The translations under genes and the position numbers were made by a program. 38,032 nucleotides of DNA, from positions 1 through 38,032 of IMG/VR virus record IMGVR_UViG_3300018432_000026, one strand, 5' to 3'. A model generated the notes under the pieces. The model did not search any database. It saw nothing but the letters and a program-made list of their open reading frames with translations, and was not told the origin of the DNA. Shown in pieces: positions 10,281 through 29,565 of this stretch (the first letter of the stretch is position 1; each line of letters starts with the position of its first letter). Source of the stretch: a virus.

Positions 10281-13200
10281 GTGGCGGTAGTCGGCTCCGC
10301 ACAGATCCTCGTCCGGCCGTCGTTCGCCGGCTTCCAGACCGCGAACCGCCGGCAGATGGCGGCAGCCGGTCAGTCCGGCGGAGTCGCGTACGGCTCCGGA
10401 TTCTCGCGGGAAGCGGCGAAGGCCCAAGGCTCGACGTTCGGCAGCAAAGCGGCCGGCGCGCTCAAGAAGACAGCAGCTGTCACCGGCGCCGCGGTCGGCG
10501 GAATTCTCGCGTTCTCGATCGCGAAGGGCTTCGGCCGGCTGAACGCGATCGAGCAAGCTCAGGCGAAGCTCCGCGGTCTCGGACACGATGCGAAGTCGAT
10601 CGAGACGATCATGGTCTCGGCGCTCGCTTCCGTGAAGGGGACAGCGTTCGGACTCGACGAAGCCGCTACGGCTGCCGCGTCCGCTGTCGCCGCCGGCATC
10701 AAGCCGGGGAAGGAGCTCACCCGGTATCTGAAGCTGACCGCTGACGCGGCGACGATCGCCGGCACGTCGTTCAACGACATGTCGCGGATCATCAATCAGG
10801 TCACGACCGCCGGCCGCGCTCAGACGGAAGATCTGAATCAGCTCGCGGAGCGCGGGATCCCGATCTATCAGTGGCTGGCGGAAGAGTACGGCGTCACGGC
10901 GCTGAAGCTCCGCGAAATGGTGACGAAGGGCAAGGTCGACTCTGCTGTCTTCCGGCGCGTCATCGAAGAGAACATCGGCGGCGCCGCGCTGTCCGCCGGC
11001 GATACGACACAGGGCGCGTTCCGGAACCTGCAGGCTTCGCTCGGCCGGATCGGCGCGAATCTGCTGTCCGGGATCTTCCCTCAGCTGCGGGGCGGCTTCC
11101 AAGCGATCACGACGGCGCTCGGTCCCTTCGAAGACAAGGCGAAGATCGCCGGCAACGCGATCGGTCAGATCATCGGCCGTGCCGGGACCGGTCTCGTCGG
11201 TCTCTACGATCTGCTCGTCAAGGGCGACTACACCGGCAAGCTCCGCGCCGCGTTCGGCTGGGCCGAAGACGACCGGGCGATCGACTTTCTCTTCGATCTC
11301 CGCGAGGGCGTGCTCGCCGTCTGGGCATCGTTCCGCAGCCGCGACGCCGGCTCGCTGGGGTCGAGCTTCGCTCAGCTCCGCGACGTGCTCCGCGAGCTGC
11401 TGCCGCCTCTCGATCAGCTGTCCGGCCGGCTGCCGTCCGTCGAGCGGATCTCGGCCGGCTTCGCGCGAACCGTCGATTTCCTAGCGGAACACTCGGGTTT
11501 GCTGAAGACGGCGCTGCTCGGCCTCGCGGTCGCGTTCGGCGTCTATAAGGCAGCTCAGGCTGCGAACGCGGTCGTCGGCCGGAACAGCGTCATCGGCTTC
11601 GGGCTGCAGATCGCCGCCACCCTGTCTCTGACCGCGAGCAACTTCGCTCTCGCGCGGAGCCAGACAGCAGTCGCGACGACGTCGACAGCGCAGGCGGTCG
11701 CGACGAGACGGTCCGCCGTCGCGACCGCAGCAGCCGCGGTAGCGTCCGGAGCTGCGAGAGCCGCGTCAGTGGCGTGGACGGTCGCTCAGTGGGCACTCAA
11801 CGCGGCGATGTTCGCGAATCCGATCGGTCTCGTCGTCCTCGCGATCGCTGCTCTCGTCGGCGGCATCATCCTCGCGTACAAGCACTCCGAGACGTTCCGC
11901 TCGATCGTGCAAGGCGCGTGGTCCGGAATCAAGGTCGCCGTCGACGCGACCTGGACGTTCCTCCGCGACACTGTCTGGCCCGGAATCGTCGGCGTGTTCT
12001 CCGCGATCGGCGGCGCCGCGACTGGACTCTGGACGAAGTACATCAAGCCGGCGTGGGATGGGATCTCGGCCGGCTTCCGGCTGGTCGGCGACGTCATCCG
12101 GTACGTCTGGGACGGCTGGATCTGGCCGATCCTCGATCTCGCCGGCGCGATCATCACATGGCTAGCGAAGACAGCGTTCCGGGTTGCGCTCAGTTTCATC
12201 ACGGCGCAGTGGCGGCTGATGGGCGCCGCGATCAAGCTCGGCTATGACAAGCTGCTGAAGCCGACGATCGACGGATTCTGGAAGGTCGTCAACACCGCTC
12301 GCGGGCTGATCTCGACCGCGCTCGGACTGATCCGGACCGGCTGGAATCTGACAGCGACGTGGGTCCGCGACAAGTACAACGTCTATGTCCGGCCGATCGT
12401 CAGTGCGTTCGGCTCCGTGATCTCGCTGCTCTGGTCGACGTACGTCAGTCCGAATCTGGTCAAGATCCGGAACCTGTGGACGACCATGTCGACCAAGATC
12501 AAGAGCGTCTATGACGTCACGATCAAGCCGACTATCGACAAGCTGAAGACGCTGATCGGCACCGTAGCTGGCGCGTTCTCGACCGCAGTAACGGCAGTCG
12601 GCAAGGCGTGGGACGGACTGAAGGCGAAAGCGAAGTCGCCGATCAACTTCGTGATCGACACCGTCGTCAACAAGGGTCTGATCGGCGGATTCAACAACAT
12701 TGCCCGCAAGATGGGCACGACCCAGATGAAGACGATCCCGTGGCCGCCGAAGGGGTGGCGCGAGGGCGGCTCGACTGGCGATCTGCCGGCGAACCGGATC
12801 GCCGGCTTCGTGCACGGCAACGAGCATGTCGTCGAAGATCCGGTCGTCCGGAAGACTCCGGGCGGACACAAGACGTGGGAGCGGCTGCGGGGTCTCGTCC
12901 GGAAGGGAAACGTCGACTGGATTCCCGGTCTCGCCGGCTACTGGCTCGGCGGTGGGGTTAAGCCGGTTCCCGGTGGCGGCAACCGTCACTCCGGCTACGG
13001 CTGGGCGCGTTGGGCCGGCGACTTCCCGAATCCGACCGGAACGGCGGTCAAGGCGTACAAGGCCGGTGTGGTCGCAGCCGTTCGGACGATGACCGGCAGC
13101 TACGGCAAGCACATTCGGATCAATCATCCGAGCAACGAGCAGACGCTGTATGCGCACCTGTCGCGGTTCCTGGTCAAGTCTGGACAGCGCGTCGGCTCCG

Positions 13201-14084
13201 GTCAGACGATCGCGCGCGTCGGCTCGACCGGTAAGAGCTCCGGGCCACATCTTCACTTCGAGCTGGCCGGCGGCGGCTCGAAGATCTCCGGCGGTGGCGG
13301 TGGTGGCGGGATCGTGACGCGAGTCATCAACTACGTCAAGCAGCTGCAGGACAAGCTGAAGTCGCCGCTCGCGAAGCTGAAGGAGCTCGGAACGTCGCCG
13401 TTCGCTGAGCTCGCGAAGGCGGCCGCGCGGAAGATCTCGGCCGGTCTGGTCGAGAAGATGCGGAAGACTCCCGGCTCGATCGTCCGGATCATCACCGGAA
13501 CGGACGGTGACGGCTCGACCGGAGGCGGATCCGTCAAGGGTGGCGGACTCGCCGGCATCAAGTCGGCGGCGCGGTCGCTCGGACTGAACAGCTGGAATAC
13601 TCACCGCGACCCGCAGGGCCGGTCGGCGATCGACATCACGGCGTCCGGCAGCAAGAACAGTCAGCTCGGCGAGCTGCTGCGGGACAATCACGGCAAGCTG
13701 GGACTGCGGTACGTCATCCGCCGGAAGCAGATCGCGTCGTCTAACGGCGGCTGGAAGTGGCGGTCCTACTACCGGCCGGCGGCGGGAGATCACACTCACT
13801 CGAATCACGTCCACGCGTCCTATGAGCGCGGAACGATGCACGCTCGCCGCGGTCTCGCGCTCGTCGGCGAACGGCAGCCGGAGCTGATTAACTTCCGCGG
13901 CGGCGAGCAGGTCGCGGCGAACCGGAAACAGGCTTCGGAGATCTTCGGCGGAACCGGTCCGACGCGGATCGAAGGGACGCTCGATCTCGGGAACGGACTG
14001 TCTGGATACGTGACCGGTATCCTCGTCGACGAGTCGGAGCGCCGCGACACAGCATCCGCGCACCGCGCGAATCTGCCGGTCTGA
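10281..14084 (+). CDS. Tape measure protein with M23 peptidase and C-terminal HxH hydrolase-like domains
   Basis: A 1267-residue protein with a GTG start after GGGAGGGG. Residues 1-400 are alanine-rich and helical with the typical tape measure opening. Hydrophobic stretches lie near 408-425 and 503-533. Residues about 895-1000 form an M23 peptidase-like domain: H903 and D914 replace the usual HxxxD spacing, and YAHLS (H959) and PHLHFEL (H990, H992) are intact. Residues about 1100-1190 form a second wall-active-type domain ending THSNHVHAS. It sets tail length and probably helps DNA pass the cell wall. The next gene starts 12 bases downstream. Confidence 0.93.
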   Translation: MAVVGSAQILVRPSFAGFQTANRRQMAAAGQSGGVAYGSGFSREAAKAQGSTFGSKAAGALKKTAAVTGAAVGGILAFSIAKGFGRLNAIEQAQAKLRGLGHDAKSIETIMVSALASVKGTAFGLDEAATAAASAVAAGIKPGKELTRYLKLTADAATIAGTSFNDMSRIINQVTTAGRAQTEDLNQLAERGIPIYQWLAEEYGVTALKLREMVTKGKVDSAVFRRVIEENIGGAALSAGDTTQGAFRNLQASLGRIGANLLSGIFPQLRGGFQAITTALGPFEDKAKIAGNAIGQIIGRAGTGLVGLYDLLVKGDYTGKLRAAFGWAEDDRAIDFLFDLREGVLAVWASFRSRDAGSLGSSFAQLRDVLRELLPPLDQLSGRLPSVERISAGFARTVDFLAEHSGLLKTALLGLAVAFGVYKAAQAANAVVGRNSVIGFGLQIAATLSLTASNFALARSQTAVATTSTAQAVATRRSAVATAAAAVASGAARAASVAWTVAQWALNAAMFANPIGLVVLAIAALVGGIILAYKHSETFRSIVQGAWSGIKVAVDATWTFLRDTVWPGIVGVFSAIGGAATGLWTKYIKPAWDGISAGFRLVGDVIRYVWDGWIWPILDLAGAIITWLAKTAFRVALSFITAQWRLMGAAIKLGYDKLLKPTIDGFWKVVNTARGLISTALGLIRTGWNLTATWVRDKYNVYVRPIVSAFGSVISLLWSTYVSPNLVKIRNLWTTMSTKIKSVYDVTIKPTIDKLKTLIGTVAGAFSTAVTAVGKAWDGLKAKAKSPINFVIDTVVNKGLIGGFNNIARKMGTTQMKTIPWPPKGWREGGSTGDLPANRIAGFVHGNEHVVEDPVVRKTPGGHKTWERLRGLVRKGNVDWIPGLAGYWLGGGVKPVPGGGNRHSGYGWARWAGDFPNPTGTAVKAYKAGVVAAVRTMTGSYGKHIRINHPSNEQTLYAHLSRFLVKSGQRVGSGQTIARVGSTGKSSGPHLHFELAGGGSKISGGGGGGGIVTRVINYVKQLQDKLKSPLAKLKELGTSPFAELAKAAARKISAGLVEKMRKTPGSIVRIITGTDGDGSTGGGSVKGGGLAGIKSAARSLGLNSWNTHRDPQGRSAIDITASGSKNSQLGELLRDNHGKLGLRYVIRRKQIASSNGGWKWRSYYRPAAGDHTHSNHVHASYERGTMHARRGLALVGERQPELINFRGGEQVAANRKQASEIFGGTGPTRIEGTLDLGNGLSGYVTGILVDESERRDTASAHRANLPV

Positions 14085-20813: not shown

Positions 20814-22457
20814 GTGTCGATCCACCCAGACGTCAAGCTGACCGACTGGCTGCCGTACCCGCGTGGCGTAGTCGTCGAGCTCGATCAGCTGTTCCCTGGC
20901 TTCAGCTGGGGAACGTATCCCGGTCACGATCCGCACGAGAACCGCGCCGCGGACGCGATGGTTCCGAACTGGTCGACCGCAGCCGGCAACCGGAAAGGCT
21001 GGGAGCTCGCCCGGTGGATCTGGGAGAACCGCTACCGGTACAACGCCTGGTATGTGATCTTCGATGGGAAGATCATTTCGCAGACCGATCCCGGCAAGGG
21101 ATGGGCGCCGTACTTCGCGCGGAACGATCCGAACCCGTCGAAGTCGCACAAGAATCACGTCCACTTCGGCGTCTACCAGCCGGTTCCGTTCGTGACGGTC
21201 TGGCTCGACCGGCTGCAGCCGGGAGTCAAGGACTCCGAATCGGTCCGCGCGATCGAGCGCGCTCTCGGTCTGTCGCCGACCGGCAACTATGACGACCGGC
21301 TGACCGCGGCCGTCCGCGACTTCCAAGAGCACGTGCTGCAGGACGCTCCGCAGTACGTGACCGGCACACCGGGCAAGCTGCAGACTGCGGCGCTGCTCCG
21401 GACCGGCAAGCTCCGCGCCGTGCTCCGCGTCGACGACAGCGGACAAGCTCCGCCGGTCGAGCCGGATCCGCCGAAGATCGAAGAGCCGCCGCTGTCCGGC
21501 TACCCGGTCCGCGCCGGCGACACTCTGTCGGCGATCGCGAGCCGGTTCGGCTACAAGGATTGGCGCGAGCTCGCCGCGCTGAACCCGGATATCGACCCGG
21601 ACCGGCTCGCGGTCGGACAGCTGATCCGCGTCGACCGGCCGGAGCCGGACGAGCCGGCGCCGCAGCCTCCGCCACCGGTAACGAAGCCGGAGCCGTTCCT
21701 GATCGGAACGTGGAACGTCCAGGTCGACAACTCGGCCGCGAACATGCGCGCCGGCTTCAAGGAGCTCGTCGACGCCGGCGTGTGCGCGTGGGGAGCGAAC
21801 GAGCTCTCGAACGACACGCGGCAGAAAGAGCTGACCGCGTACGCGAAGACGCTCGGCTGGAAGGCGACGTCGCGCAACAGCGCTGTGACAACGTTCTGGG
21901 ATCCCGACGTACTCGAACTGCAGCGGCAGACGTACAAGCTCGTCCAGGACTCCGGGACGCCGTGGGAGGCTGGCACGGGCGGCGCCGACACGATCTACAA
22001 GATCGTCATGGTGACGGAGTTCGAGCGTCGCTCGGACGGCGAGCTGCTCGTCGTGCTGAACAATCACTTCGTGCCGGGGACGCACAAGGACGGAGTCCTC
22101 AACAAGCCGCGGCCGCCGAAGGGCGGGACCTCGCGGATGACGGTTCTCGTCAAGCAGATCTCGGCGCTGCAGCAGCTGCTCGGTCAGTACCGCGGGAAGC
22201 GTCTCGTCGCGATCACCGGCGATCTGAATCTTCCGTGGGGCACGCCGGCCGGCGACTACCTCGAACGGAAGATGGACGCCGCGCAAGCTACGTGCTGCTG
22301 GGACGAAGCGCCGGATCAGGACACGCACAAGAACGGTCCGATCGACTACGTCATCGCGTCCGACGACGGAGTCATCGTCTCCGTGAAGCGGCTCGGCCGG
22401 CACGGCTCCGACCACTACGCTCTGCTCTGCGGAATCCAACCGAAGGGGAAGCCATGA
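20814..22457 (+). CDS. Modular lysin: HxH wall-hydrolase-like domain, peptidoglycan-binding, LysM and EEP nuclease
   Basis: A 547-residue protein with a GTG start after AAAGGA. Residues 5-122 form an HxH domain (GHDPHENRAAD near 37-47; NHVHFGV at 114-120) shared with the tape measure and the minus-strand hydrolase. Residues 140-196 are a peptidoglycan-binding repeat and 229-274 a LysM (YPVRAGDTLSAIASRFG). Residues 295-542 are an endonuclease/exonuclease/phosphatase domain with an intact-looking active site: TWN (N301), E330, NNH (H418), GDLN (D470, N472) and SDH (D533, H534). It is followed by the holin gene. It should lyse the wall; the nuclease part is unusual for a lysin. No other endolysin gene is seen. 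Confidence 0.85.
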   Translation: MSIHPDVKLTDWLPYPRGVVVELDQLFPGFSWGTYPGHDPHENRAADAMVPNWSTAAGNRKGWELARWIWENRYRYNAWYVIFDGKIISQTDPGKGWAPYFARNDPNPSKSHKNHVHFGVYQPVPFVTVWLDRLQPGVKDSESVRAIERALGLSPTGNYDDRLTAAVRDFQEHVLQDAPQYVTGTPGKLQTAALLRTGKLRAVLRVDDSGQAPPVEPDPPKIEEPPLSGYPVRAGDTLSAIASRFGYKDWRELAALNPDIDPDRLAVGQLIRVDRPEPDEPAPQPPPPVTKPEPFLIGTWNVQVDNSAANMRAGFKELVDAGVCAWGANELSNDTRQKELTAYAKTLGWKATSRNSAVTTFWDPDVLELQRQTYKLVQDSGTPWEAGTGGADTIYKIVMVTEFERRSDGELLVVLNNHFVPGTHKDGVLNKPRPPKGGTSRMTVLVKQISALQQLLGQYRGKRLVAITGDLNLPWGTPAGDYLERKMDAAQATCCWDEAPDQDTHKNGPIDYVIASDDGVIVSVKRLGRHGSDHYALLCGIQPKGKP

Positions 22458-22759
22458 CCGAACCGGTCAACACGCGCGCGCTGTCCAGGGACGCGCTCAA
22501 CAGGGCTGCACGGACGCTCTGGCAGAACGTAGGGGTAGACGTCGCGGTCGCGGTCGTCACGCTGCTGCTGCCGCTTGTGACAGGCGCGGAGAGCTGGTCT
22601 GAGCTCGACTGGCAGTGGATCGGATTCTCGGTGACGAAGACGGTCGTTCTCGTCGTCTTCGCGTTCGTGATGCGCCGGTTCATCGACCAGTCGAAGGTGC
22701 CGACTCCGCTTCCGCCGGAGCCGGTCACGCCGCCGACCGAGCAGCGTCCGCTCGACTGA
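22454..22759 (+). CDS. Holin
   Basis: A 101-residue protein overlapping the lysin stop by four bases (ATGA). It has two membrane segments (about 26-45 and 55-74), a positively charged N-terminus and a proline-rich tail. Size, topology and place directly after the lysin fit a class II-type holin that opens the membrane for lysis. The region up to 22909 then holds no convincing gene. Confidence 0.78.
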   Translation: MTEPVNTRALSRDALNRAARTLWQNVGVDVAVAVVTLLLPLVTGAESWSELDWQWIGFSVTKTVVLVVFAFVMRRFIDQSKVPTPLPPEPVTPPTEQRPLD

Positions 22760-23579: not shown

Positions 23580-23813
23580 TCAGCGCGAGCAGCCGTTGCA
23601 GAGAATCCCGCGGATCGAGCTGCAGCGGTCCGGCTGATCGAGCTCGACCGGAACGAAGACGGCGGCTGGCATGATCTCGGCGAGAATCCGCTTCGTCGAG
23701 CTGTCGAGACCGTAGTCGGCGAAGACGGTCGGAACGCGACGGACGGCGGGGGTCGGAACGCGACGGACGGCGGGAGTGAAGACGATTCGGGAGAAGCCGT
23801 GGTATGTGGTCAT
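23580..23813 (-). CDS. Small protein with a duplicated octapeptide, leaderless
   Basis: A 77-residue protein beginning MTTYHGFSRIVF. The octapeptide PAVRRVPT occurs twice in tandem because of a perfect 24-bp duplication. The C-terminus carries several cysteines and ends CNGCSR, which may bind metal. The start codon lies six bases after the -10 of a repeated promoter, with no ribosome-binding site. No family was recognised. Confidence 0.65.
   Translation of the reverse strand: MTTYHGFSRIVFTPAVRRVPTPAVRRVPTVFADYGLDSSTKRILAEIMPAAVFVPVELDQPDRCSSIRGILCNGCSR
23727..23774. repeat. Perfect 24-bp tandem duplication
   Basis: Two identical 24-bp units (23727-23750 and 23751-23774) in frame within the leaderless gene at 23580-23813. 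They add eight residues to its product and look like a recent slippage or duplication event. Confidence 0.9.
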
Positions 23814-23848
23814 GGGAATACAGTAACGCTATGGCGCGACTGCGTCAA
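23814..23848 (-). promoter_or_regulatory. Leaderless promoter P1
   Basis: Minus strand: TTGACG (23848-23843), 17-bp spacer, TACTGT (23825-23820), ATTCCC, then ATG at 23813. The second operator half is degenerate here (GCCAT instead of GTCAA). The stop codon of the preceding gene (23831-23829) lies in the spacer. Confidence 0.75.
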
Positions 23849-24026
23849 GCGATTCGGCCGAGATCTCGCCGAAGATTTTCGCGACGAGCTCCGCGGTACC
23901 GGACGCCGGCACCAGCGTCTCTCCCGCTTCGATCCGCTGCAGCGCGCGCTCGTCCGTCAGATACTCCACGATCGCGGCGCCGCGGCCGCGCTGACCGGTC
24001 GAGTACGTCAGCCAAGCGCGCTCCAT
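23829..24026 (-). CDS. Small protein, unknown
   Basis: A 65-residue protein, MERAWLTYSTGQRGRGAAIV onward, whose ATG overlaps the upstream stop (TGATG). It has a mixed alpha/beta make-up (VEYLTDERALQRIEAGETLVPASG). Its last codons run through the -35 and spacer of promoter P1. An earlier GTG is possible but would overlap the upstream gene more. Function is unknown. Confidence 0.62.
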   Translation of the reverse strand: MERAWLTYSTGQRGRGAAIVEYLTDERALQRIEAGETLVPASGTAELVAKIFGEISAESLDAVAP

Positions 24027-24340
24027 CACCGGACGCTCTCTGACCACTTCGCGCCGGCGGCGCGCGTACGGATCGCGGAGCTCAGCGGCTGGCGGAGATC
24101 GACGGCGTCGAGCTCGCCGCAGCTCTCCGCGTGAAGGATCGAGTCGATCTGCTCGCGGCAGTCAACGCACCGGAGTTTCTGACGGTCGACGGTCTTCAGC
24201 GGTCCGCTGCTGTCGCCGTAGATGCCGACGACGATCGGAAAGTCGCGGCCGATCGTGTCGAGACGGACGAGACCGCCGGTGACTCCGCCGTCGATGATTA
24301 CGCGTGCCCACTCGGTGGGGAGAGCTGCTGTGCTGGTCAT
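24026..24340 (-). CDS. Small CxxC protein, leaderless
   Basis: A 104-residue protein beginning MTSTAALPTEWARVIIDGG. The middle is beta-rich (VTGGLVRLDTIGRDFPIVVGIYG) and is followed by LRCVDCREQIDSILHAESC, which may bind a metal ion. It is the first gene after promoter P2, with ATG six bases after the -10. It is coupled to the next gene. No family was recognised. Confidence 0.7.
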   Translation of the reverse strand: MTSTAALPTEWARVIIDGGVTGGLVRLDTIGRDFPIVVGIYGDSSGPLKTVDRQKLRCVDCREQIDSILHAESCGELDAVDLRQPLSSAIRTRAAGAKWSESVR

Positions 24341-24375
24341 GGGAATACAGTAGCAGTATGACCGGACCGCGTCAA
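24341..24375 (-). promoter_or_regulatory. Leaderless promoter P2 with operator-like palindrome
   Basis: Minus strand: TTGACG (24375-24370), 17-bp spacer, TACTGT (24352-24347), ATTCCC, then ATG at 24340. The -35 begins an imperfect palindrome TTGAC-N8-GTCAT. The TGA stop of the preceding gene (24374-24372) lies inside the -35 hexamer. Confidence 0.8.
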
Positions 24376-24958: not shown

Positions 24959-27394
24959 TCACACATTGCAAGCCTTGCCTGCTGTTGCCGTTCCCGAGCT
25001 GCCGGCGACGCTGACGTGAACGTGGTCACGGTGCATCGACGAATCCCCCGGACCGGCGATCGGCGAGTACGGACGCCACCCTTCGCCGTTCCGCTGAGCT
25101 GTCCAGATCTGCTCGTAATAGATCACCTGCGTGACTCCGAGAGCTGACGCGTTCGCCTGCAGCCACTTCGCGACCCGCCAGCCGTACGCTCGCGCGTCCG
25201 GAGCTTCGTAGTCGACGAAGACACCGGACAGCATCAGATCGACCGCCTGAGACCGCGACGGCAGATGACCGGGACGCGTACCCATCGACTTGATCCGCGG
25301 ATACCGGACCGCGACACAACGCATGACCGCCTGAGCGTCGACCGTCATCCCCGAGATCGGCAGCGCGCGAGCCGGAACCTTACCCTTGCTGATCCCGTCG
25401 ACCGAAGCGTCCGGATTCGACATCGTTCCGCCCAGATACAGCACGACCGGCGAATGGTCCGAGCCGAACTTCGGCAGCACGTCCTGACCGGTGAACGTCG
25501 CATTGACGAGCCAGCCGCCGTCGATCGTCCGCTTACCGTGAGTCGGAGCTTCGCCGGCTTGCCAGTTCGAGACGAGACCCGCGGCCGCCAGCGGCGACAG
25601 CAGACCGTTCTGCAGACCGGCGCCGAAGTCGGAGTTCCAATCGGCGATCGCGACCGCCGGCTGAGCTCCGGCAGCCTGAGCTTGCGTCGCCGCGATCACG
25701 CGCCGAATGTGCTCCTTGTAGACGGCGATCCGCTTCGGCTGATTCCGCGGCCGGCCGCCTTTCTCGACGCGGTACAGCAGATGCGTGTTCACGACCGAGA
25801 ACGTCTGACCGGATCCCAGATTCCGGAACTGTGCGACCTGGATCCACTTCGGGCCGACCGAGCCGCCCTCGACGCGGACAACCTGCCGGTCAGCTGTTCC
25901 GACACCGGGAGTCCGGTACTCGCGCAGCAGCTCGACACGCGACCGATCCCAGACGATCGGAACCGCGTTGTTGCCGTCCGTCATTCCCCAGCCGGCTCCG
26001 AGCGCTGTCTGCACGGCGCGCTTCGGACCGGATCCGCCGGCTTCTTGCAGGCCGATCACAGCAGCGCCGGCAGCAGCCATAGCGCGGACGCCGGAGCTGA
26101 TATCGGCCCGTCCGTTCCCGTACAGCACATTCCAGGTGCCGACCTTGACGTCGACGCCGCACGCCGTACCGTCCGGAGCTGCGTTCTCCGAGCTCGGAGA
26201 GTCCGACCGGATCGACGCCTGCAGATACTTCCGGTAGCTGCCGGACGTGTACGTCGTCCACGGCTCCCACGACCGGCCGGCCGCTTCCCAGACCTTCCAC
26301 GCCTGCCATGCGTTGTCGACCGGATTCCGCCAGTCCTTGCCGGCGAACAGCTGCGGGTGAGCTCCGTCGTTGATCTGCCACATTCCGCGCATCGTTCCGC
26401 GTCCGACAGTCGGACCGGTCACGTTCCGGAAGTCAGACTCTGCTCCGGCGACCGCGACAGCTGTTGCGACCTGGTCAGCGGGGAAGTACCGGCGAGCCGC
26501 ATCCTCCGCGACCCGCCGCCCCGTAGGGTCCGGCTGGGACGCCAGCGCCGGCATGGCACCAGGGCCGCCGTACGCACCTTGCGGCGCCCATTTCATCGGA
26601 TCAATCGCTGAGTAGACGTCGCGGTAGTTCACACCGGGCGGGTAGACCTCGAAGTGCAGATGCGGACCGAACGAGCGGCCGGTCGAGCCGACCTGGCCGA
26701 TCACCTTGCCGGCTTCGACCGGCTGACCCTTCGAGACGAGCAGCCGCGACAGATGCGAATAGGTCGTCGTGTGACCGTCCGCGTGCCGGATTGCGACGCG
26801 GTTCCCTGCCCAGTCGCCGTCGTCACGAGCAGCGAGGACCATTCCGCCCATCGCTGCTCGAACATCGGCGCCGGCTGCAGCTCGGAAGTCCTGCCCGGTG
26901 TGATACCGCGCCCACGAGCCGGTAGCGCCGAAGCTCGCCGCGAGCGGACCGGAGACCGGTACGCGGAACGAGTCGACCGGCGGACCGTCCGGGCGAGCCG
27001 GCGGAGCCGGCGCCGGCTGCTGATCGGCTTGCGGAGCACGGCACGGGTTGCACGCCGCATCGTGCGCAGCCTGAGCGTCCGCGTGCGCCTGTTCCTGCTG
27101 CTGGTAGTAGTCGGACGGCGGCAGACCGTCCGCGGCGCGGTCGCCGGCTTCCAGCCAATGACCGACCGTCGTCCACGTCGACTCGACAATGTCGCGGATC
27201 AGACCGTCCGGGATCGGCGAGTAGAAGACGCGGCTCCGGGTGCCGACGTCATTGAACAGCCGGAGACCCTTCAGCGTGACCGACGTCGGCAGGTTGCCGT
27301 AGCAGCCCATCGAAGCCGTCTTCCCAGTGTTGAGGACCGCCCACAGCGCGAGCAGCACGAGACAGATCGCGACGAACAGGATCTTCCGGAACAT
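24959..27394 (-). CDS. Membrane-anchored multidomain wall hydrolase: M23, lytic transglycosylase, EEP nuclease, HxH domain
   Basis: An 811-residue protein. Residues 4-21 are a membrane anchor or signal segment. Residues about 148-252 are an M23 peptidase (HTGQD: H165, D169; HLHFEV: H245, H247). Residues about 293-391 are a lysozyme-like transglycosylase (AGAESDF with E319; GMWQIN at 337-342). Residues about 415-655 are an EEP nuclease with N422, E451, H538, D585, N587 and SDH (645-647). Residues about 685-797 are the HxH domain, ending MHRDHVHVS. It overlaps the translocase gene (TGATG; a GTG one codon earlier is possible). The order resembles conjugative hydrolases such as CwlT in concept, but the combination is not one I know. 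Confidence 0.85.
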   Translation of the reverse strand: MFRKILFVAICLVLLALWAVLNTGKTASMGCYGNLPTSVTLKGLRLFNDVGTRSRVFYSPIPDGLIRDIVESTWTTVGHWLEAGDRAADGLPPSDYYQQQEQAHADAQAAHDAACNPCRAPQADQQPAPAPPARPDGPPVDSFRVPVSGPLAASFGATGSWARYHTGQDFRAAAGADVRAAMGGMVLAARDDGDWAGNRVAIRHADGHTTTYSHLSRLLVSKGQPVEAGKVIGQVGSTGRSFGPHLHFEVYPPGVNYRDVYSAIDPMKWAPQGAYGGPGAMPALASQPDPTGRRVAEDAARRYFPADQVATAVAVAGAESDFRNVTGPTVGRGTMRGMWQINDGAHPQLFAGKDWRNPVDNAWQAWKVWEAAGRSWEPWTTYTSGSYRKYLQASIRSDSPSSENAAPDGTACGVDVKVGTWNVLYGNGRADISSGVRAMAAAGAAVIGLQEAGGSGPKRAVQTALGAGWGMTDGNNAVPIVWDRSRVELLREYRTPGVGTADRQVVRVEGGSVGPKWIQVAQFRNLGSGQTFSVVNTHLLYRVEKGGRPRNQPKRIAVYKEHIRRVIAATQAQAAGAQPAVAIADWNSDFGAGLQNGLLSPLAAAGLVSNWQAGEAPTHGKRTIDGGWLVNATFTGQDVLPKFGSDHSPVVLYLGGTMSNPDASVDGISKGKVPARALPISGMTVDAQAVMRCVAVRYPRIKSMGTRPGHLPSRSQAVDLMLSGVFVDYEAPDARAYGWRVAKWLQANASALGVTQVIYYEQIWTAQRNGEGWRPYSPIAGPGDSSMHRDHVHVSVAGSSGTATAGKACNV

Positions 27395-29475
27395 CACTCG
27401 GCCCCGTATCCGACTCCGTCGAGCAGCGCCTGCCGCTCGACCGGAGACAGTTCCTCGAGCTCAGCGTCGGCGAGGTCGTCGTCGACCGCGGAGATCGGCG
27501 ACACCGGGTTGCTCTGCCGTCTCGGCAGCGCCCTCCACTTCCGCGCCGGCTTCTCGTCGTCTTCGAGCGCGAGCTTCGCAGCTTTCCGCCGGCCGAAGCC
27601 TCCGCGGACGATCGCGCGAGCTCGCCGCTGCAGCCGGTTTCCGCCATTGTGAACCTTGTTCATCACCGGCAGCTCGTCCTCGATCGCCGTCTGCTCGATC
27701 GACTTCGCCGTCTTCCGGTCCTTGTACTTCGTCGGATCCGGACAGCGCTCCGGATCAGCCATGAACGGAGTCACGTGGATGTTCCACCAGCGGCAAGGTC
27801 CGTGGTCCGGGCAGATCGGACAGTGCTCGACGTAGTCGCGCTTGTCGTGCTGAGCGAACCGCAGACCGGGCTTGTTCGAGATCCCGACGTAGTACAGCTT
27901 CAGTCCGGTCTGCTCCGGCATCGGACCGTAGACCTTGTACACGTAGACGGTCTCCGGGGCGACGTCGACGACCTTGTCTTCGTCGACCGGCTTCATTCCG
28001 AGCGGCAGCAGACCCTGAGCGATCCGGTCCATCGCTTCGTCGTCGACGTACGCAGCGCGGAAGCGCGTCGGGTTGTTGCCGTCGTCCGTCGAGTAGCCGA
28101 CGCCTTTCTGAGTCGCCAGATTCAGCGTGTGGCAGAGCGCGCCGTCCTTCGTCGCGTCGTCGCCGAGAATCATGTCCGTGTTGATCGCCGACTTCGTCTT
28201 CATCGCGAGCCGCTGCGGGACGAGATCGCGGAAGTCGCCGATCGCCGACTTCTGGCCGATCTGAGCATTCGCCCAGATCGAGACTCCGGACGCGCGACCC
28301 TCGAACGCGATCTGACCGAGCGGCGACTTCACGCCACCCTTGACGCCGGACAGCATGTCCTGCAGCGGCAGCAGCTCGTCCAGCACGACGATGATGTGCC
28401 GGCTGTCGAGCGTCGCCCTGTGCTTCCGGCCGCCTTGCTTCAGCTGACGGTCGCGCATCACCTTCAGCGCGTCCGTGACGAGCTTCACGGTCGCGTCGGC
28501 GGACGTCACGTACCGGGCGACGCGGAAGGACCGCGGCGAGTCCGGGTCGACATGCGGAGCGAACGCGCGCATCTCGACGCCACCCTTCGCGTCCGAGACC
28601 CACAGCTCGACCGGGATCCGCTGCCAGATGATCGAGCAGAACAGCGCCCACATCAGCGACGACTTCCCGGAGCCGGTGATGCCGCCGATCAGCAGCGACA
28701 GCGCCAGGTCAATCCATGCCGGCCGGCGGCCGGCGCGGACGCCGTAGACGAGCGGAGTCGCGTCGCCGATCTTCGGCGCGGCCGGCAGCTCTTGGATCGG
28801 CAGCAGCCGCTGCAGCGGATCCGTCCAATACATCTTGATGAGGCCGACACCGACCTTGTCGCCGCGGATCAGGACGAGCTCGGTAGCTCCGCAGATCTCC
28901 GCGATCCGCGGACCGTGCGCGGCGATATCGGACAGCGTCAGACCGATACGGCGCGGCTTGACGAACGCTTCGATATCGAGATCCGGAGTCGTCCGCGGCC
29001 GGCTGAGAAACGGAACCGCCTTCTCGCGGCCGGCGACGATCTTCTCCTGAGTCAGCGCCTTGTTCCAGTCGTGCCGGAGCCAGAAGATCCGCCAGATCGA
29101 GACGATCCGGTGACGGACGACTACGGCGACGATCAGCACGACCCGGACCGAATGGTTGTACGTCCAGCACGCGACGAGCTGCAGCAGCGTGCCAAGCCGC
29201 TCCCGGTCCTTCAGCGCGCGGAGACCGTCAGTCGCGTACGCAGACCGGAGCCGGTCCGGACCTTCGTCAGAGACGCGTGCACGGCGCGGAAGCCGGTCGA
29301 CGCGCGCGAGCTCGCGGCCGCGTCGAATACAGAACGGAACCGATCCGAGCAGATCCCAGGAAAGCGCGAGCAGCACAGCGACCGGACCGGGGACGTGCTG
29401 CCAGCACGCGAAGAAAATCAGAAACCGGATCCAGAATCCGGCGTACTGCTGACCGTGATTGATTACTTGACTCAT
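27394..29475 (-). CDS. FtsK/TraB-like membrane DNA translocase fused to a GIY-YIG nuclease-type domain
   Basis: A 693-residue protein. N-terminal hydrophobic segments lie near 14-26, 32-47 and 98-133. The RecA-like motor has Walker A GGITGSGKS (264-272), WVSDAKGGVEM (292-302) and Walker B IIVVLDE (361-367). Residues about 509-612 form a GIY-YIG-like domain: VYVYKVYG (510-517), YYVGIS (528-533), R539, H543, E594 and N606, with a Cys/His insert at 552-561. Motors of this kind pump double-stranded DNA across membranes in Streptomyces-type conjugation. The start after AAGGAAG is chosen over an upstream ATG that lies in the hairpin region. Confidence 0.85.
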   Translation of the reverse strand: MSQVINHGQQYAGFWIRFLIFFACWQHVPGPVAVLLALSWDLLGSVPFCIRRGRELARVDRLPRRARVSDEGPDRLRSAYATDGLRALKDRERLGTLLQLVACWTYNHSVRVVLIVAVVVRHRIVSIWRIFWLRHDWNKALTQEKIVAGREKAVPFLSRPRTTPDLDIEAFVKPRRIGLTLSDIAAHGPRIAEICGATELVLIRGDKVGVGLIKMYWTDPLQRLLPIQELPAAPKIGDATPLVYGVRAGRRPAWIDLALSLLIGGITGSGKSSLMWALFCSIIWQRIPVELWVSDAKGGVEMRAFAPHVDPDSPRSFRVARYVTSADATVKLVTDALKVMRDRQLKQGGRKHRATLDSRHIIVVLDELLPLQDMLSGVKGGVKSPLGQIAFEGRASGVSIWANAQIGQKSAIGDFRDLVPQRLAMKTKSAINTDMILGDDATKDGALCHTLNLATQKGVGYSTDDGNNPTRFRAAYVDDEAMDRIAQGLLPLGMKPVDEDKVVDVAPETVYVYKVYGPMPEQTGLKLYYVGISNKPGLRFAQHDKRDYVEHCPICPDHGPCRWWNIHVTPFMADPERCPDPTKYKDRKTAKSIEQTAIEDELPVMNKVHNGGNRLQRRARAIVRGGFGRRKAAKLALEDDEKPARKWRALPRRQSNPVSPISAVDDDLADAELEELSPVERQALLDGVGYGAE

Positions 29476-29502
29476 CGTGGGGAGTCGCTTCCTTCTAGGT
29501 GC

Positions 29503-29542
29503 GGTTCGGCGCCGCCGCGGAATGTTGCGACGGCGCCGAACC
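29503..29542 (-). terminator. Intercistronic hairpin (attenuator) before the translocase
   Basis: Arms GGTTCGGCGCCG (29503-29514) and CGGCGCCGAACC (29531-29542) pair perfectly over 12 bp. It lies between the small membrane protein gene and the translocase gene of one operon. It probably reduces translocase expression relative to the small proteins. Confidence 0.65.
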
Positions 29543-29565
29543 TGCCGGGTTTTCATCTAGAGCGG

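Follow-up and report, generated by a model that had tools for sequence, protein, structure and literature searches.

What does an endonuclease/exonuclease/phosphatase (EEP) domain do at the end of a phage lysin? The question is raised by a gene at positions 20,814 to 22,457 of a 38,032-base virus record, the whole of which is the window analysed here. The original prediction read its product as a lysin that carries an EEP nuclease domain with an intact active site and that might clear released DNA, lower viscosity at lysis or attack the DNA of competing phages. The analysis below supports the lysin identity, the presence of an EEP domain and its intact active site, whereas a DNA nuclease activity and the purposes suggested for it stay proposals. 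The link between EEP domains and lysis is stronger than had been claimed, given that the same phage has another such fusion and that EEPs turn up in unrelated lysis cassettes. The likeliest substrate is nucleic acid, with an envelope phosphodiester, in a lipid or a wall polymer, as a serious rival.

An endolysin with a C-terminal EEP domain

The gene order of the window is of the siphovirus type (TerL, portal, protease, capsid, tail tube and tape measure), and its portal shares 38% identity with the Andrew portal, Andrew being an Arthrobacter phage. The virus infects bacteria, probably soil-type actinobacteria. The lysin reading frame has a GTG start with a Shine-Dalgarno sequence (AAAGGA) upstream, encodes 547 amino acids and has a GC3 of 0.84-0.89 across every domain. 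The locus contains the following features:

20814..22457, +, lysin: LAS/VanY-like domain, PG-binding-like linker region, LysM and EEP
20904..21173, +, lysin residues 31-120: LAS/VanY-like (ARB-07466-like) putative peptidase
21273..21332, +, lysin residues 154-173: weak PG_binding_1-like stretch (PF01471, 16.8 bits against a cut-off of 23)
21501..21632, +, lysin residues 230-273: LysM (PF01476, 4.1e-8, 33.5 bits, above cut-off)
21690..22454, +, lysin residues 293-547: EEP domain (PF03372, AF2 model and structure matches)
22454..22759, +, holin-like membrane protein of 101 amino acids: two hydrophobic stretches by hydropathy, overlapping the lysin stop by 4 nt

By position the product is an endolysin, encoded after the tail genes and right before a two-helix membrane protein. 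The locus is arranged like gp23-gp24 of Andrew, where an endolysin gene after the tail genes is followed, with a 4-base overlap, by a membrane protein gene. The membrane protein of the window weakly matches a PHROG holin (E 0.016), and hydropathy gave no signal or membrane segment in the lysin itself. The predicted lysin identity is supported by the LysM anchor, the position before a holin-like gene and the synteny with Andrew. The LysM was correctly called; the peptidoglycan-binding repeat claimed beside it remains a sub-threshold match. Nor is this the only lysin candidate, as had been proposed: the gene at 24959-27397 (-) specifies another wall-hydrolase protein that also has an EEP domain, and an M23 peptidase domain (3.8e-26) is embedded in the tape measure protein (10281-14084, +).

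The N-terminal domain had been described as wall-hydrolase-like. It has a paralogue in the C-terminal domain of the 24959-27397 protein (32% identity over 94 amino acids, E 5e-11 in a two-protein comparison), and an HxxHVH motif is common to both window copies and to M23-family proteins of Rhodococcus conjugation loci. Candidate zinc ligands in the lysin are H38 or H41, D47 and H115/H117. Pfam gave no match to this domain, and the H-x6-D spacing usual for LAS enzymes is not kept in it. One plasmid copy has SDHTEGRAVD, near the LAS signature. LAS-type peptidase activity is therefore suggested rather than observed, because the first histidine is displaced in both window copies.

The EEP domain went undetected when the whole lysin was scanned with Pfam, and likewise in a genome search. 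The slice of residues 293-547 alone scores 25.4 bits against PF03372 (cut-off 24.5) over profile positions 2-225 of 225, in agreement with the prediction of a full-length domain. An AlphaFold (AF2) model, for which the input was a seven-sequence alignment of viral EEPs, has a pLDDT of 78.8 and a pTM of 0.82 and shows the four-layer alpha/beta EEP fold; the whole lysin folded from its single sequence gave a useless model (pLDDT 39.5). With the EEP model, Foldseek retrieved 245 solved chains at E <= 0.001, with bacterial EEPs and Tdp2 at the top (E 2.4e-13), and a two-EEP profile searched against the PDB gave a sub-threshold EEP match only (E 0.13). VIA-align Z scores were 23.6 for Tdp2, 22.9 for a Bacteroides EEP, 22.6 for a mannosyl-6-phosphatase and 21.6 for Bacillus cereus sphingomyelinase. 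The nearest structures, at Z 21-24, also include nocturnin and CNOT6L and are mostly nucleic-acid phosphodiesterases. Modelling of the active site had been suggested as a check, and the model confirms the EEP fold.

The active-site set comprises N301, E330, H418, D470, N472, D511, D533 and H534. The seven residues named by the original prediction, which are all of these but D511, lie at the positions given for them and are invariant in an alignment of seven viral EEPs. Among ten viral EEPs, with identities of only 14-30%, they and D511 are again invariant, except for N301, which is kept in 9 of the 10. The EEP fold family spans nucleases, sphingomyelinases and sugar or inositol phosphatases. 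Histidine 418 presumably places the domain on the DNase I/SMase/Tdp2 side of the family, and the ExoIII/APE1 type was rejected. We conclude that the lysin EEP is probably a catalytically competent, lysis-linked phosphodiesterase. The fold alone does not settle its substrate, given that sphingomyelinases (Z 21.6) and a sugar phosphatase (Z 22.6) are among the structural neighbours.

These same neighbours favour a second reading, to which we give rather less than an even chance, that the EEP is an envelope phosphodiesterase, so that the lysin would act on an envelope phosphate bond as well as on wall peptide. Candidate bonds are phospholipid or PIM head groups, wall teichoic acid and the phosphate linker of arabinogalactan. 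LysB esterases, which complement LysA in mycobacteriophages, offer an analogy. Against an envelope target, the closest solved structures are mostly nucleic-acid enzymes, and the comparison revealed no structural feature peculiar to EEPs that cleave lipids or polymers.

A second EEP wall enzyme beside a translocase gene

The second EEP protein is encoded on the reverse strand, and its gene overlaps that of a DNA translocase by 4 bases:

24959-27397, -, second EEP protein of 812 amino acids: signal anchor at residues 6-24, M23 at 165-254, SLT_3 at 305-382, EEP at about 415-660 and a LAS-like C-domain
27394-29556, -, FtsK/TraB-like DNA translocase: N-terminal hydrophobic/membrane regions and a weak GIY-YIG-like C-domain

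Pfam detects the M23 (5.5e-29) and the lysozyme-like SLT_3 (1.6e-9) of the larger wall enzyme. Its EEP slice scores 18.3 bits against PF03372, below cut-off, aligned over 195 of 225 profile positions, and is recovered by profile A3, in which it is itself a row. The two window EEPs align at 4e-9 in a two-protein blastp. Since both proteins carry the fusion, EEP has been joined to wall-cutting domains twice in one phage. A recent duplication was considered for the two domains and rejected, as they share 22-27% identity and are no closer to each other than to other EEPs.

The translocase matches a PHROG FtsK/SpoIIIE-like family (2.6e-20) and, by tblastn, FtsK/TraB proteins of actinobacterial plasmids. 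Plasmids of Rhodococcus and other actinobacteria carry relatives of the M23 and LAS parts of its neighbour, within transfer modules that contain FtsK, SCO6880 or TraM-type ATPases; no EEP was found in the M23 proteins of three Rhodococcus records. The FtsK/TraB-like and M23/SLT genes resemble part of a conjugation module, and neither a relaxase nor VirB4 was matched among the window genes scanned. We note that this plasmid-transfer-like gene lies on the reverse strand, in the region that holds integrase and repressor in Andrew, a related temperate phage. In the interval 23580-24360 (-), a short tandem repeat, RRVPTPAVRRVPT, lies within a small reverse-strand reading frame, and copies of catgggaatacagta, which may be shared regulatory elements, lie near 23813 and near 24341, each upstream of a reverse-strand start.

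This setting bears on the substrate in several ways. Both window EEPs are paired with a LAS-like domain and other wall enzymes, so the wall is the common denominator of the two settings, and the second protein is membrane-anchored and would face the wall; both points fit an envelope phosphodiesterase. A DNA translocase next to the second EEP protein is an odd setting for a DNase. Alternatively, the EEPs could be weapons or shields against other mobile elements, the second protein cutting superinfecting phage or plasmid DNA as it crosses the wall and the lysin cutting such DNA when it is released at lysis. The 812-amino-acid protein would sit at the envelope, its gene is grouped with the translocase gene, and tail-linked EEPs exist (at L035, and in the tail fibre of Citrobacter phage CR8). 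No immunity or specificity element was found, and the M23/LAS relatives in Rhodococcus plasmids sit in transfer modules without an EEP. We regard this role in conflict between mobile elements as improbable.

EEP domains in other viral genomes

The first DNA-pattern scan gave chance matches only. Two scans for C-terminal EEP motifs, blind to genomic context, covered 2.9 million viral contigs and gave seven other true EEPs, all of which match PF03372 (E 2e-6 or better on the scale of one genome). They are listed here with one from a cultured phage:

G001: Amidase_2-EEP fusion, followed by an r1t-family holin (3.7e-20)
G002: CHAP-GH25 lysin with an EEP directly behind it, then a two-helix protein
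G002 element, L047:6033-6090, viral contig IMGVR_UViG_3300034008_000022: GGGAAAA and a 46-nt hairpin
G003, L048:1435-2190: stand-alone EEP between an HNH endonuclease and the terminase
G004: Amidase_2 lysin, EEP gene (41.5 bits) and a small protein with a hydrophobic stretch
G005: EEP with a signal-like N-terminus, adjoining a serine integrase
G006, L035:3326-5014, -: tail-like protein with a C-terminal EEP, in a low-GC phage
G007: EEP gene overlapping a lysozyme-like SLT_3 gene, possibly a virion lysozyme
Streptomyces phage Yosif gp5, L056:1675-2373: stand-alone EEP between an HNH endonuclease and the terminase, annotated as a hypothetical protein

The EEP is fused or adjacent to a lysin in three of the seven, or in four counting G007. 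Assuming random placement with a 4-10% chance per genome, three such cases have P 0.002-0.03 and four have P 8e-5 to 0.003, in a sample that is small and biased towards GC-rich EEPs with the chosen motif spacing. A search of actinophage lysins for the same domain pairing had been suggested by the original prediction; the scans of viral contigs found EEPs in the lysis cassettes of unrelated viruses, in addition to the second fusion in the window phage. Most cassette EEPs are basic (pI 9.6-11.7), and the window lysin's own EEP is not (pI 6.6). The 'tail fiber' of phage CR8 also matches the EEP fold.

Close relatives of either window EEP protein were absent from the viral contigs, genome contigs, phages and plasmids searched, where only their M23, LAS-like and LysM parts had matches. 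No EEP was found in eight cultured actinophages that had not been selected for one; a PF03372 miss is weak evidence, because that search also missed Yosif gp5, which A3 found. PHROGs gave no confident match to the phage EEPs found, and the weak matches include no lysis family.

In G002 the EEP may be made as part of the lysin. Its frame is -1 relative to that of the lysin and lacks a start codon close to the domain. At its end the lysin frame reads CCG GGA AAA TAG, with the slippery GGGAAAA in the right phase directly before the stop. This is a classic -1 slippery heptamer, and it occurs just twice in 2,314 codons of the long genes of the contig. The hairpin right after it has a folding energy of -30.1 kcal/mol (z -4.7, equalled by no shuffle; z -5.0 for a longer stretch). 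It starts at the stop codon itself, and the usual spacer between slippery site and hairpin, 5-9 bases, is longer than in G002; the upper stem would persist once the lower stem melts. The element is thus a candidate for -1 programmed frameshifting, on one contig only, and the putative CHAP-GH25-EEP product would consist of the lysin, a proline-rich linker (GKIDPPAEPTPGPG) and the EEP. The EEP belongs to the lysin in either case, because a base missing from the sequence would also mean a direct fusion. If true, the frameshift product would add a new case of dosage control within lysis cassettes.

These contexts bear on two alternatives. The EEP could be a passenger in an actinophage lysis region that collects morons, fused by accident or acting only in lysogeny, with no role in lysis. 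Some viral EEPs do lie elsewhere, by a serine integrase (G005), before the terminase (G003 and Yosif gp5) or in a tail-like protein (G006), and the recurrence sample is small. Against a passenger stand the two in-frame wall-enzyme fusions of the window phage, a further one in another phage, the frameshift-type fusion of a third, and active sites conserved at 14-30% identity; we give this explanation little credence. The second alternative is the envelope phosphodiesterase. An EEP accompanies quite different lysins in these cassettes, and its target could therefore be something other than a wall bond, which weakens this alternative.

Substrate and comparison with known systems

We are evenly divided on whether the window protein is an endolysin whose EEP works as a nuclease on DNA spilled at the breached wall. 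On this reading, the holin would open the membrane and the lysin would leave through the holin-dependent route, its LAS-type N-domain would cut the peptidoglycan peptide, and the EEP at the breached wall would cut outspilling DNA, so that virions and cell contents could disperse instead of being trapped in a DNA gel. The EEP would then be an accessory catalytic module that recurs in phage lysis, either fused to the lysin or encoded alongside it. The nearest folds and the basic charge of most cassette EEPs support a nuclease, and the EEP of the window lysin, which is not basic, speaks against one. A cytoplasmic DNase would also endanger unpackaged phage DNA unless inactive or made late, a problem that an envelope phosphodiesterase avoids in a cell still packaging DNA. 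The actinobacterial PF03372 protein Rv0888 lends itself to both substrates: it has catalytic His and Asp residues and a measured nuclease activity outside the cell (PMC4733049), and was also reported as a sphingomyelinase (PMC4733049, PMC5893642).

In the literature covered, which leaves out most subscription journals, no description of an EEP-bearing endolysin was found, and a detailed study of Gordonia phage lysis cassettes does not mention a nuclease or phosphatase (PMC9671378). An EEP domain in a modular endolysin is probably new, and the extra lysis activity that it would bring may be general. We propose, tentatively and with more doubt than confidence, that EEP phosphodiesterases are a recurrent third lysis-cassette enzyme beside the holin and the peptidoglycan hydrolase, present as a fusion, a neighbour gene or a minor -1 frameshift product, and that by cutting a specific envelope phosphodiester (or released DNA) they remove a limit on virion release. 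Usual accounts of lysis in Gram-positive hosts name a holin and a peptidoglycan hydrolase, with LysB added in mycobacteriophages. If true, a phosphodiesterase built into lysins and kept across unrelated cassettes would add a catalytic step that is new for phage release, and in lysins used as antibacterials, a domain cutting DNA or an envelope phosphate would alter lysate viscosity or lysin action.

Several known systems share parts of this arrangement. Streptococcal prophages carry DNase genes next to lysin genes, comparable to an EEP beside a lysis cassette; those DNases have other nuclease folds, are separate secreted proteins and are thought to serve the lysogen. Tdp2 and DNase I-like EEP phosphodiesterases include the closest solved folds (Z up to 23.6), whereas identity is 14% and the lysin EEP is, by context, not a repair enzyme. 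In actinobacterial conjugation modules (those of Rhodococcus pBD2 and others), the M23-family wall hydrolases likewise combine M23 or SLT with the LAS-like domain seen here, but no EEP was found in the records examined. Extracellular actinobacterial EEPs of the Rv0888 type share the family, the catalytic His/Asp set and action outside the membrane, which is predicted for the lysin; unlike them, the window EEP is phage-encoded and physically joined to wall hydrolases. The closest parallel in organization is the modular LysA-type endolysin of Gram-positive phages, which the window lysin resembles in its lysis-cassette position, LysM, putative peptidoglycan hydrolase and holin-like neighbour. Where such endolysins combine a peptidase, amidase or muramidase with LysM or PG-binding domains, the window lysin adds an EEP phosphodiesterase domain.
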